Shown: positions 59,547-63,870 of the stretch, piece after piece
Layout: every line of letters starts with the position of its first letter
Numbering within the stretch: position 1 is the stretch's first letter
Assembly (NCBI GenBank): GCA_015062655.1
Contig: SUUG01000020.1
Span: 1-64,000 of the forward strand
Source of the DNA: Coriobacteriaceae bacterium
GTDB taxonomy: Bacteria; Actinomycetota; Coriobacteriia; Coriobacteriales; Coriobacteriaceae
Reading direction: 5' to 3'
Length of the DNA stretch: 64,000 bases
Position numbers and translations under genes: made by a program
The notes under the pieces: model-generated
Databases searched by the model: none
What the model saw: only the letters and a program-made list of their open reading frames with translations
What the model was told of the DNA's origin: nothing

Positions 59547-60881
59547 ATGTTCACTCTTCATAAGACGAGAGGCGGTGTGCATCCACCTCAGCTCAAGGAC
59601 ATGCGCGATTACGCGTGCAAGTTCATTGATGCCCCGCAGCGGGTCAGGATCCCGCTGAACATGCACATCGGCGCCCCGTGCCATCCGGTGGTGAAGCCGG
59701 GAGACCACGTGTACGTGGGCACGCTGATCGGCGAGGGGCAGGGGCTCTACGCGCCCGTGCACGCGAGCATCTCCGGCACGGTGGTCGGCACCGACGAGGA
59801 GAAGCTCCCCACCGGTGCCATGGCGCAGGTCGTGGTGATCGACTCCGATGGAAAGATGCAGCCCGACCCTGAGCTCAAGGCGCCCAGCTACCGCACCAAA
59901 GACGAGTTCATCGACGTGGTCCGCGCCTCGGGCACGGTCGGTCTCGGCGGCGCGGCGTTCCCCACCTGGTTCAAGATGCGCGCACCCGAGGGCAAGCGCT
60001 TCGAGTACCTCGTGGTCAACGGCATGGAGTGCGAGCCCTATATCACGAGCGACTTCCGCCAGATGATGGAGCATCCCGACCGCGTGGCCGGCGGCGTGCA
60101 CCGCATCGCCGAAGCGCTCGACATCCCGGCCGCCGTGATCGGCGTTGAGGACAACAAGCCCGAGGCTGTCGAGCGCCTGCGCGAGACCATCAAGGCGAAC
60201 GGATGGGACGACCGCGTCGAGGTCATGTCCATCCCCACCAAGTATCCCGCGGGCGGCGAGAAGGTCCTCATCCACGCCGCCACGGGCCGCGACGTGCCTG
60301 CCGGCGGCCTGCCCGTCGATGCGGGCTGCCTCGTCATCAACGTGACCACGGCCGCGCGCGTCGAGTACTTCTGCCAGACCGGGCGCCCGCTCGTCTTCAA
60401 GGTGATGACGATCGCCGGCGATTGCGTCAAGAACCCGGGCAACTACCTCGTGCCGATCGGCATGTCCGTCCGCGACATCATCGAGTCGGCCGGCGGCCTC
60501 ACCGAGGAACCGCGCAAGATCATCATGGGCGGGCCGATGATGGGCCGCACCCTCGATGACATCGACTGCCCGGTCATCAAGGCCAACAACGCGATCCTTC
60601 TGCTGAGCGACAGCGCCGTGCTCCCCGAGGAGACCGCCTGCATCCGTTGCGGCCGTTGCGTGCGCGCCTGCCCGCTCGGCCTCATGCCGTTCGCGCTCGA
60701 CGCCGCCGGGCGCCGCCAGGACGTCGTCGCCCTGGACGAGCACGCGGTCATGAACTGCATGGAGTGCGGCTCGTGCGTGTACGCCTGCCCGGCGCACCGC
60801 CGCATCGTGGCGAGCATCCGCGGGGGCAAGGTGCTCTACCGCAGTGAGACCGCCCGCCTGACCCAGCCGAAGGAGGCCTGA
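59547..60881 (+). CDS. rnfC: Electron transport complex subunit RnfC
   Basis: HKTRGGVHPP; GLGGAAFPTWFKM; two 4Fe-4S motifs CIRCGRCVRACP and CMECGSCVYACP. Confidence 0.95.
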   Translation: MFTLHKTRGGVHPPQLKDMRDYACKFIDAPQRVRIPLNMHIGAPCHPVVKPGDHVYVGTLIGEGQGLYAPVHASISGTVVGTDEEKLPTGAMAQVVVIDSDGKMQPDPELKAPSYRTKDEFIDVVRASGTVGLGGAAFPTWFKMRAPEGKRFEYLVVNGMECEPYITSDFRQMMEHPDRVAGGVHRIAEALDIPAAVIGVEDNKPEAVERLRETIKANGWDDRVEVMSIPTKYPAGGEKVLIHAATGRDVPAGGLPVDAGCLVINVTTAARVEYFCQTGRPLVFKVMTIAGDCVKNPGNYLVPIGMSVRDIIESAGGLTEEPRKIIMGGPMMGRTLDDIDCPVIKANNAILLLSDSAVLPEETACIRCGRCVRACPLGLMPFALDAAGRRQDVVALDEHAVMNCMECGSCVYACPAHRRIVASIRGGKVLYRSETARLTQPKEA

Positions 60882-60886
60882 GCGAT

Positions 60887-61819
60887 ATGAACCTCATCAA
60901 CGAAGCCTCCCCGCATCTGCACGGGCGCCAGTCCACGCAGCTCATCATGGGCTGCGTCATCGTGGCGCTGCTGCCCACGCTCGTGGCGGCCACCGTGCTC
61001 TACGGCATCGACGCGCTCGTGCTGACGCTCACCTGCGTTGTCACGGCCATCGTCTGCGAGCAGGTCTGCTGCATGCTCATGCGCCGGAAGTCGACGGTCG
61101 GGGATCTCTCCTGCATCGTCACGGCGATCCTGCTCGCCTTCACGCTGCCGGCGACCTGCGCCCTGTGGGTCGCGGCGCTCGGCACCGCCTTCGCGATCGT
61201 CGTCGTGAAAATGCTCTTCGGTGGCATAGGCAACAACTTCGCGAACCCGGCGGTGGCCGGCCGCGTGTTCATCATGGTCGCCCTGCCCTCGGCGCTCTCG
61301 AGCTATCCGGACACGGTGCTCAAGTCGGTCGACGCCGTGTCGAGCGCGACCCCGCTCGCGATGGCCGCCTCGGGCGACATGCCCCTGAGTATCATGAACC
61401 TCGCCCTCGGCGCTCACGCGGGCGCACTCGGCGAGACCTGCCTGGTCACGCTGCTCGCCGGCTATGTGTTCCTGCTCGTCATGAAGGTCGTGGACGGCTG
61501 GGCCACCCTGCCCTTCATCGCCACGGTCGGCCTCATCATGGGGCTCTCGGGCCAGGACGCGGTCTTCCACCTGCTCGCCGGCGGCCTCGCCCTCGGCGCG
61601 TTCTTCATGGCGACGGACTACACCACCACGCCCATGACGCCCCAGGGCAAGGTCATCTTCGGCATCGGCTGCGGCCTCATCACGGCGCTTGTGCGCATCT
61701 TCGCGCCCGCGCCCGAGGGCGTGGCCTTCTCCATCCTGTTCATGAACCTGTTCGTGCCGCTGATCGACCGCTACACGCGCTCTCAGCTGGTGGGAGGTGC
61801 CAAGCATGACATCATCTAA
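60887..61819 (+). CDS. rnfD: Electron transport complex subunit RnfD
   Basis: Multi-TM; VDAVSSATPLAMA flavinylation-type motif; GNNFANPAVAGRVFIM. Confidence 0.94.
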   Translation: MNLINEASPHLHGRQSTQLIMGCVIVALLPTLVAATVLYGIDALVLTLTCVVTAIVCEQVCCMLMRRKSTVGDLSCIVTAILLAFTLPATCALWVAALGTAFAIVVVKMLFGGIGNNFANPAVAGRVFIMVALPSALSSYPDTVLKSVDAVSSATPLAMAASGDMPLSIMNLALGAHAGALGETCLVTLLAGYVFLLVMKVVDGWATLPFIATVGLIMGLSGQDAVFHLLAGGLALGAFFMATDYTTTPMTPQGKVIFGIGCGLITALVRIFAPAPEGVAFSILFMNLFVPLIDRYTRSQLVGGAKHDII

Positions 61820-62408
61820 CGCGCCTGCGCGCGCGGGCTGGTTCGCGCGCAAGAAGAACGGGGCGGTGTACACCTGCGTGGCGCTGCTCATCGTGACCGG
61901 CGTGGCCGCCGGCGCGACCGCGGTCGCCAACGTGAGCCTCTACGACGCGTTCAAGGCCTCCGACATCGCGCTCGAGGAGAGCAAGGGCGGCGCCCAGCGC
62001 GCGCTCATCTTCCCCGAGGCCGCATCGTTCGAGGCGGTCAAGGCGCCCGAAATCGAGGGGCTCAACTCCGTGTACCAGTCCGATGCCGGCGACTTCGTCT
62101 TCGACGTGCAGGCGGAGGGCTACCACGGGGACGTGGAGCTCATGATCGGTATCACGGCCGACGGCAAGGTCGCCGGGATCCAGATCGTGGAGGAGGACGA
62201 GACCGAGGGGATCGGCACCAACGCGCTGACCGACGAGTTCTTCGCGAGCTTCAAGGACCTCGACGCCACGGGCACGCTCACGGTCGAGGAGGCCGGCTCC
62301 GGCGAGACCCACGTCGACGGCGTCTCCGGTGCGACCTTCACCTCGAACGCCGTGGTTGCTGACCTGAACATCGCCTTTGAGGCCTTCGCGGAAGTGGGGG
62401 GTAACTAA
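61806..62408 (+). CDS. rnfG: Electron transport complex subunit RnfG
   Basis: Single N-terminal TM; DGVSGATFTSNAV FMN-binding motif. Confidence 0.93.
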   Translation: MTSSNAPARAGWFARKKNGAVYTCVALLIVTGVAAGATAVANVSLYDAFKASDIALEESKGGAQRALIFPEAASFEAVKAPEIEGLNSVYQSDAGDFVFDVQAEGYHGDVELMIGITADGKVAGIQIVEEDETEGIGTNALTDEFFASFKDLDATGTLTVEEAGSGETHVDGVSGATFTSNAVVADLNIAFEAFAEVGGN

Positions 62409-62409
62409 G

Positions 62410-63066: not shown

Positions 63067-63665
63067 GCCTCATCAATGCGATCTTCACTGCCGCGTTCGA
63101 TAACAATCTCGTGTTCACGCAGGTCATTGGGCTTGTGAGTGTGATCATTCTCGCAGGGCGGCCGTTTGACGCGGTGCGTTTTGGCTGCCTGCTGGGGCTC
63201 GCCACGGCCGCGTCGGGCATTCTTGGCTCGGCGCTCTACGCCGGGTTCCTCGCCCCCTGGGGCACGGCCTACTTCGCGCCGGCGGTGATCGCGGTGCTGA
63301 ACGCGGCCATCGTGTACGCCGCGTCGGCCGTGATGTCGTGCGGCCTTGCGGGCGCCGACCGCCTGGCGGCGCTGCGCCGCGGCGGCATGCTCTCGGCGAG
63401 CGCGGCGCTTCTCGGCGTCACGCTCTCGAACACGGTGGCGTTCGACGCGGGAACGGCGACGGCGGAGACCCTCATGGGCACGGCGATCGGCTCCGGTGCG
63501 GGCGTGTTCCTCGCCGTGGTGCTGTTCGCGCTCGTGCGCCAGCGCGTGGACGACGCCCTCGTTCCCAAGGCCCTGCGCGGCCTGCCCATCTCGCTCGTGA
63601 CCGCCTCGCTCATGGCGTTGGCCTTCTCGGGCGTGGCGGGCATCGCCGGCGGCATGTTCGCGTAA
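63063..63665 (+). CDS. rnfA: Electron transport complex subunit RnfA
   Basis: MSLINAIFTAAFDNNLVFTQVIGL; 6-TM; 4-nt overlap with rnfE. Confidence 0.88.
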   Translation: MSLINAIFTAAFDNNLVFTQVIGLVSVIILAGRPFDAVRFGCLLGLATAASGILGSALYAGFLAPWGTAYFAPAVIAVLNAAIVYAASAVMSCGLAGADRLAALRRGGMLSASAALLGVTLSNTVAFDAGTATAETLMGTAIGSGAGVFLAVVLFALVRQRVDDALVPKALRGLPISLVTASLMALAFSGVAGIAGGMFA

Positions 63666-63677
63666 GGAGGATGTGAG

Positions 63678-63809
63678 ATGGATCCGCTGATTCAGACCGT
63701 GGTCCCGCCCATCATCGCCGTGATGGCCGTGGCTGTTCCCGCTGTGGTGCTCGCCGTGGTGTCGGGTGTCGCCCGTCGCGCCGAGTACGAGGAGCGCGCG
63801 GGGGAGTAG
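63678..63809 (+). CDS. 43-aa single-TM peptide in the position normally held by rnfB (not in the supplied ORF track)
   Basis: AAGGAGG RBS 5-6 nt before ATG 63678: MDPLIQTVVPPIIAVMAVAVPAVVLAVVSGVARRAEYEERAGE*. Confidence 0.75.
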   Translation: MDPLIQTVVPPIIAVMAVAVPAVVLAVVSGVARRAEYEERAGE

Positions 63810-63841
63810 GGGCTTCGAAGCCCGATAGGGGTTTGTGTGTG

Positions 63842-63870
63842 GCGGCGCGCCTTCGGGTGCGCCGCTTTTT
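63842..63870 (+). terminator. Intrinsic terminator with UUCG tetraloop closing the rnf operon
   Basis: GCGGCGCgCC-TTCG-GGtGCGCCGC followed by TTTTT. Confidence 0.93.

Follow-up and report, generated by a model that had tools for sequence, protein, structure and literature searches.

The contig SUUG01000020.1 of the Coriobacteriaceae bacterium assembly GCA_015062655.1 (contig 104,512 bp; genome 2.07 Mb, 98.7% complete) was analyzed over its first 64 kb, here referred to as the window. Close to the end of the window lies an rnf operon of the gene order rnfC-D-G-E-A without rnfB. A preliminary description of the sequence had reported this order, followed by an open reading frame (ORF) for a 43-amino-acid (aa) transmembrane peptide and a UUCG terminator, and the gene calls bore it out. 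The operon comprises the following features:

59547..60881, plus strand: rnfC, 444 aa; NADH/FMN (nicotinamide adenine dinucleotide/flavin mononucleotide; Complex1_51K) domain, RnfC_N, SLBB and two CxxCxxCxxxC 4Fe-4S motifs
60639-60671 and 60756-60788, plus strand: the two 4Fe-4S motifs of RnfC
60887..61819, plus strand: rnfD, 310 aa; FMN-attachment motif SSATP at 61340-61354
61797..62408, plus strand: rnfG, 203 aa from a GTG, start uncertain; FMN-attachment motif SGAT at 62325-62336
62410..63066, plus strand: rnfE, 218 aa, divergent; PF02508 with 41 bits
62500-62502 (L31) and 62749-62751 (G114), plus strand: former [2Fe-2S] cysteine positions of RnfE, from alignments
63063..63665, plus strand: rnfA, 200 aa, divergent; PF02508 with 45 bits
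63135-63137 (V25) and 63402-63404 (A114), plus strand: former [2Fe-2S] cysteine positions of RnfA, from alignments
63678..63809, plus strand: 43-aa peptide with a single transmembrane helix in the rnfB slot; ribosome-binding site GGAGG at 63666-63670, directly after the rnfA stop
63841..63866, plus strand: intrinsic terminator closing the operon, with a stem of 11 pairs, a UUCG loop (4 nt) and a T tail

RnfC matched PF01512 (E 1.5e-46), PF13375 and TIGR01945 (447 bits, over the cut-off), RnfD matched PF03116 (E 2e-96) and TIGR01946 (over the cut-off), and RnfG matched PF04205 (E 4.5e-17). The terminator-like hairpin has the arms and loop GGCGGCGCGCC-TTCG-GGTGCGCCGCT, followed by the T tail.

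The preliminary description had left room for an rnfB just beyond position 64,000, for one elsewhere in the genome and for an assembly deletion. None of these explanations held. The contig contained no rnfB when read to 74 kb, and the proposed genome search found no RnfB with either PF04060 or TIGR01944. PF04060, the Fe-S domain of RnfB, had 0 matches in the genome, while the same search matched all of the positive controls Escherichia coli, Thermotoga maritima and Methanosarcina acetivorans. With TIGR01944 only sub-cut-off matches to several 2x[4Fe-4S] ferredoxin-type proteins were obtained over the genome. Because these searches were empty and the controls positive, we consider rnfB to be truly absent and not misplaced. 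An assembly deletion was ruled out, since 27 genomes share the arrangement, in one case on a single 2.46-Mb contig. A second Rnf or Nqr system in the same genome was rejected as well, as PF02508 matched only RnfE and RnfA of the operon.

The survey was extended to 333 genomes of the Coriobacteriia, 60 of them Coriobacteriaceae. PF02508 was present in 102 and PF04060 in 95 of the 333 genomes. All 75 PF02508-bearing genomes of other families carried PF04060, compared with 0 of the 60 Coriobacteriaceae. An rnf operon without RnfB was carried by 27 of these 60 genomes. Among rnf-bearing genomes PF04060 was thus found in 0/27 Coriobacteriaceae versus 75/75 others (Fisher p 3e-25, a value that ignores phylogeny). 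Likewise, the RnfB-type motif NCGxCG was absent from 29 named loci within the DNA examined (0/29) and present in 6 of 6 canonical control loci. The named carriers were Collinsella vaginalis, C. stercoris, C. intestinalis, C. tanakaei and C. ihumii, Enorma phocaeensis and uncultured Coriobacteriaceae.

In a tree of RnfC and RnfD the 27 formed one clade (SH-aLRT, the Shimodaira-Hasegawa-like approximate likelihood ratio test, 100) nested among canonical Coriobacteriia; its join with the nearest canonical Rnf (L097) is uncertain, both being long branches. On these sequences a single loss event in the ancestor of these Coriobacteriaceae would be the simplest reading. Patterns built from this same clade, scanned over 84,980 species, gave matches in Coriobacteriaceae only. 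The same variant elsewhere in the Actinomycetota was looked for and rejected: no intermediate scores occurred in a hidden Markov model search of 397 Actinomycetota genomes, and both cysteines described below were kept in all 20 further RnfA checked from outside the Coriobacteriia. No prior description of the variant was found in the openly licensed literature.

The missing rnfB is not the only peculiarity of the operon. RnfE and RnfA are themselves anomalous, which the preliminary description had overlooked. In canonical Rnf and in the related Na+-translocating NADH:quinone oxidoreductase (NQR), the RnfA-RnfE or NqrE-NqrD pair holds a [2Fe-2S] cluster by four cysteines, two per subunit, that carries electrons from RnfB or NqrF across the membrane to RnfG or NqrC (PMC12174285). 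Strict conservation of this cluster across Rnf and NQR has been described, and current pumping models are built around its redox switch (PMC12174285, PMC10643135); the exchange NqrD-C29A alone yields a protein devoid of the cluster (PMC10643135). Pairwise alignments to solved RnfA and RnfE together with multiple alignments revealed that all four cysteines were missing in 27/27 relatives and present in 22/22 canonical Coriobacteriia. The replacing residues across the 27 were A/L/V and A/S in RnfA and L and A/G in RnfE. Substitute metal ligands were rejected, as no invariant Cys or His was found in the alignment of either divergent protein. An Asp at residue 13 of RnfA (window 63099-63101) was invariant in the 27 and is hydrophobic in aligned canonical RnfA; it shares the N-terminal region with residue 25, where a cluster ligand used to be.

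The PF02508 scores did not exceed 77 bits in the Coriobacteriaceae relatives and mostly ranged from 145 to 229 in other families, besides two partial matches of about 90-124 bits. The fold of both proteins is retained, since their AlphaFold2 models still matched RnfA and RnfE/NqrD best in the PDB. For RnfA (pLDDT, the predicted local distance difference test, 74) the top Foldseek match was RnfA 9eri_A with a TM-score of 0.74, i.e. the RnfA/NqrE fold, and for RnfE (pLDDT 78) the top matches were RnfE/NqrD.

Since RnfB and all four cluster cysteines are both gone, the loss as read from the sequences comprises the whole ferredoxin-handling electron-transfer arm and not one subunit. This makes it unlikely that, as had been proposed, a different electron-entry module occupies the rnfB slot, because the next carrier, the [2Fe-2S] cluster of RnfA and RnfE, is without its ligands throughout. 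For the same reason it is very improbable that the complex still works as a ferredoxin:NAD+ oxidoreductase in which RnfB is substituted by a docked stand-alone ferredoxin or unrelated Fe-S protein and electrons bypass the RnfA/E cluster on their way to RnfG. The genome does encode several 2x[4Fe-4S] proteins, those matched below cut-off by TIGR01944, and RnfA, RnfE and the anchor peptide were kept in 27/27 loci; yet the arm's only known transmembrane carrier has lost its ligands with no invariant Cys or His instead, and the operon is without a candidate Fe-S subunit.

The other half of the complex was well conserved. RnfC kept the 51K FMN/NAD domain and both CxxCxxCxxxC motifs, and it scored 355 bits to RnfC of Clostridium tetanomorphum and of the NADH-bound Acetobacterium woodii complex. 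The FMN motif (S/T)xAT of RnfD and the FMN motif SGAT of RnfG were kept in the relatives; RnfD and RnfG of the window scored 250 and 66 bits, respectively, to the 7zc6 subunits. Within RnfG (window 61797-62408) the canonical ETPGLG was altered to ET(D/E)GIG in the relatives examined. Identities to L097 were 48-49% for RnfC, 43-48% for RnfD, 25-26% for RnfE and 27-32% for RnfA, compared with 41%, 48%, 48% and 50%, respectively, between two canonical Rnfs. Among these four proteins only RnfE and RnfA have thus clearly diverged.

All six ORFs of the operon were under purifying selection, with Nei-Gojobori omega values of 0.01-0.34 in ten close pairs, for which some ORF starts in the relatives were crude; their synteny was kept across four genera. 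These results, the intact cofactor motifs and the distribution of the flavin transferase gene apbE reported below leave hardly any probability for a decaying, non-functional Rnf that is heading for loss, even though the presence of the operon is patchy (27/60) and 33 of the 60 family genomes are without rnf.

The selected ORFs include the peptide. The preliminary description had compared it to a bare membrane anchor and had proposed to check its conservation; it does look like such an anchor, and it proved to be conserved. An ORF of 43-69 aa with one N-terminal transmembrane helix and a charged tail occupied the rnfB slot in 27/27 loci and likewise in the 29 named loci. Its dN/dS was 0.08-0.34. 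The charge pattern, with a charged C-terminal side, fits the N-out, C-in helix of RnfB. Against a profile of the RnfB N-terminus the peptides scored a mean of 6.2 bits versus 1.4 bits (sd 3.0) for 620 other transmembrane segments, and hhalign aligned the peptide with the N-terminal helix of RnfB at a probability of 59%, a weak similarity. Taken together, this suggests that the peptide may be the surviving membrane anchor of RnfB.

In canonical Rnf, electrons follow a semicircle from cytosolic ferredoxin via RnfB and the [2Fe-2S] cluster of RnfA/E to RnfG on the outside and back via RnfD and RnfC to NAD+ (PMC12174285). With RnfB and the cluster removed, what remains is a single wire that spans the membrane and fully connects NADH with RnfG. 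We propose, with a probability of roughly 0.6, that the operon encodes a one-armed Rnf that passes electrons from NADH via RnfC, RnfD and RnfG to an extracytoplasmic acceptor and whose ferredoxin arm has been dismantled. In the ancestor RnfB would have shrunk or been replaced until a single-transmembrane anchor peptide was left, and the RnfA-RnfE dimer would have lost its [2Fe-2S] cluster. Provided that the subunits are occupied by the cofactors which their motifs predict, cytosolic NADH would be oxidised at RnfC (FMN, 2x[4Fe-4S]), and the electrons would move to RnfD (riboflavin/FMN), to the covalent FMN of RnfG at the outer face and on to the extracytoplasmic acceptor. This path would correspond to canonical Rnf in reverse, ending at RnfG. 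The remaining parts, RnfA, RnfE and the peptide, would either form a redox-inert scaffold or act as a partner in conformational change or ion conduction. By analogy, outward flow from NADH is the likeliest use of the wire, as electron flow from the NADH side to the outside has been proposed for smaller NQR/RNF-like systems (PMC8238504, PMC10979944).

The flavin machinery of the carriers is consistent with this reading. ApbE was present in 27/27 rnf-positive versus 6/33 rnf-negative Coriobacteriaceae genomes, counts which are not independent of phylogeny. FMN_bind had a single match, RnfG, in each rnf-positive genome including the source genome, and it also occurred in one rnf-negative genome. 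In the six rnf-positive genomes read (G000, G203, G191, G216, G158 and G178) apbE was located directly behind the gene of an EetB-type protein, whose PF07456 domain was confirmed by Pfam for G000. PF07456 is the family of the flavin adenine dinucleotide (FAD) exporter subunit EetB, which is often found with rnf genes (PMC9973259). Because ApbE co-occurs with the operon and sits beside an EetB-family protein, covalent flavinylation of RnfG and RnfD is likely. As a candidate partner, an FAD_binding_2 reductase was uninformative, being present in 60/60 genomes; two that were inspected were NadB-like.

Several points weigh against the one-armed, NADH-driven Rnf. RnfA and RnfE are kept under selection although they are redox-inert in the model, which points to a function that it does not cover. 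The altered ET(D/E)GIG segment of RnfG may indicate that the FMN environment or docking differs. The co-occurrence counts depend on phylogeny, and neither a reductase gene nor an acceptor gene was found linked to the operon. Furthermore, the electrons could run inward, and some carriers could use a quinone as acceptor, given that menA (TIGR00751) was found in 9/27 rnf-positive and 0/33 rnf-negative genomes.

The quinone can also be placed at the centre of the complex. As an NADH:menaquinone oxidoreductase, RnfC and RnfD would use NADH to reduce quinone, at RnfD and in an NqrB-like manner, with RnfG as a side branch. The source genome has menA above the cut-off (G000:C5:69030-69686, L227), all nine menA-positive Coriobacteriaceae are rnf-positive, and in the related NqrB the path ends with the reduction of quinone (PMC12174285). 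We nevertheless judge this unlikely, as 18/27 rnf-positive genomes are without menA by TIGR00751, and RnfG, its FMN motif and ApbE were kept in all, although a path from RnfC via RnfD to quinone needs no RnfG. Menaquinone as a general acceptor was rejected on the same count of menA, a menA-independent quinone route not having been searched for. In the source genome a 95-aa 2x[4Fe-4S] ferredoxin adjoins menA.

The same wire may also be run inward, with an extracytoplasmic donor feeding RnfG and NAD+ being reduced at RnfC. This is the direction of the retained half in canonical forward Rnf, from RnfG via RnfD and RnfC to NAD+ (PMC12174285). Yet the extracytoplasmic donor would have to be of low potential, near that of the NAD+/NADH couple (about -320 mV) or lower. 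No such donor is known in these fermenters, and the operon has no donor gene linked to it. The inward direction is therefore doubtful, and export of electrons from NADH remains our preferred reading.

Compared with canonical Rnf (ferredoxin:NAD+ oxidoreductase; A. woodii 9ERI, C. tetanomorphum 7ZC6), the operon shares the gene order C-D-G-E-A, the cofactor motifs of RnfC, RnfD and RnfG, the RnfA/E fold and a single-transmembrane element in the rnfB slot. It differs by the absence of the RnfB Fe-S domain and of the four RnfA/E cysteines and hence of a ferredoxin arm. Judged by its sequence, the complex is homologous to Rnf but fails these two defining features. Surveys that take RnfB as the marker of Rnf (PMC8238504) would miss the variant, which is conserved, under selection and present in cultured gut bacteria.

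In the proposed origin of Na+-NQR, the loss of rnfB from an Rnf operon led to an RnfC without cofactors, NqrA, and the RnfB helix was passed to NqrF (PMC4014512). Both systems would thus derive from an Rnf operon without rnfB in which the homologues of RnfA/E, RnfD and RnfG were kept. In a mirror image, NQR keeps the A/E [2Fe-2S] cluster, gained NqrF and has a cofactor-free NqrA, whereas here the RnfC motifs were kept and the A/E cluster was lost. An identity as Na+-NQR was rejected, since RnfC has lost neither of its 4Fe-4S motifs nor the 51K domain and no NqrF (FAD/2Fe-2S) was found in the operon or just downstream, the rest of the genome not having been searched for it. We would give somewhat better than even odds to a previously undescribed respiratory complex with cluster-free RnfA and RnfE, an RnfB cut down to a free transmembrane peptide and export of electrons from NADH, as the mirror-image outcome of the rnfB loss behind NQR. 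The NQR-origin hypothesis (PMC4014512) would thereby gain a real case of rnfB loss with the opposite outcome. Moreover, a family-wide natural knock-out of the cluster with the rest under selection offers a direct way to tell the electron-transporting parts from the ion-transporting ones.

The two-gene NQR/RNF-like systems of Meheust et al. 2021 (PMC8238504) resemble the operon by a single electron path, proposed to lead from NAD(P)H to an extracytosolic flavin, and by their dependence on ApbE. They consist of an RnfD homologue fused to PF00175 and an FMN-bind protein, unlike the stand-alone RnfC, RnfA, RnfE and peptide found here. The 310-aa RnfD of the operon matched PF03116 only and has no PF00175 fusion. 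Listeria-type flavin-based extracellular electron transfer (FLEET) has in common with the carriers a flavinylated extracytoplasmic carrier, ApbE, an EetB-family protein and a probable NADH-to-outside outcome. The Listeria path runs via Ndh2, quinone and PplA, while the transmembrane step here would be RnfD. For Collinsella and relatives, which are common gut commensals, the operon probably means that NADH can drive electrons to extracytoplasmic acceptors. One rnf-negative genome of the genus Collinsella carried a FLEET-like locus instead (L127, G175:C46:56000-74000). It encodes ApbE, an EetB-like transporter with ATPase parts, large secreted-looking FMN_bind proteins and a 4Fe-4S membrane protein resembling NapH.

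Past position 64,000 the contig continues with a ligase-like gene (8867-11080 of L001), ABC transporters and others. Upstream of rnfC an HtrA-like serine protease is encoded at 57710-59125 of the window. The same was found in 21 of 26 relatives' stretches read, while three of the other five stop too near rnfC to tell. The protease is perhaps functionally linked to the envelope complex.

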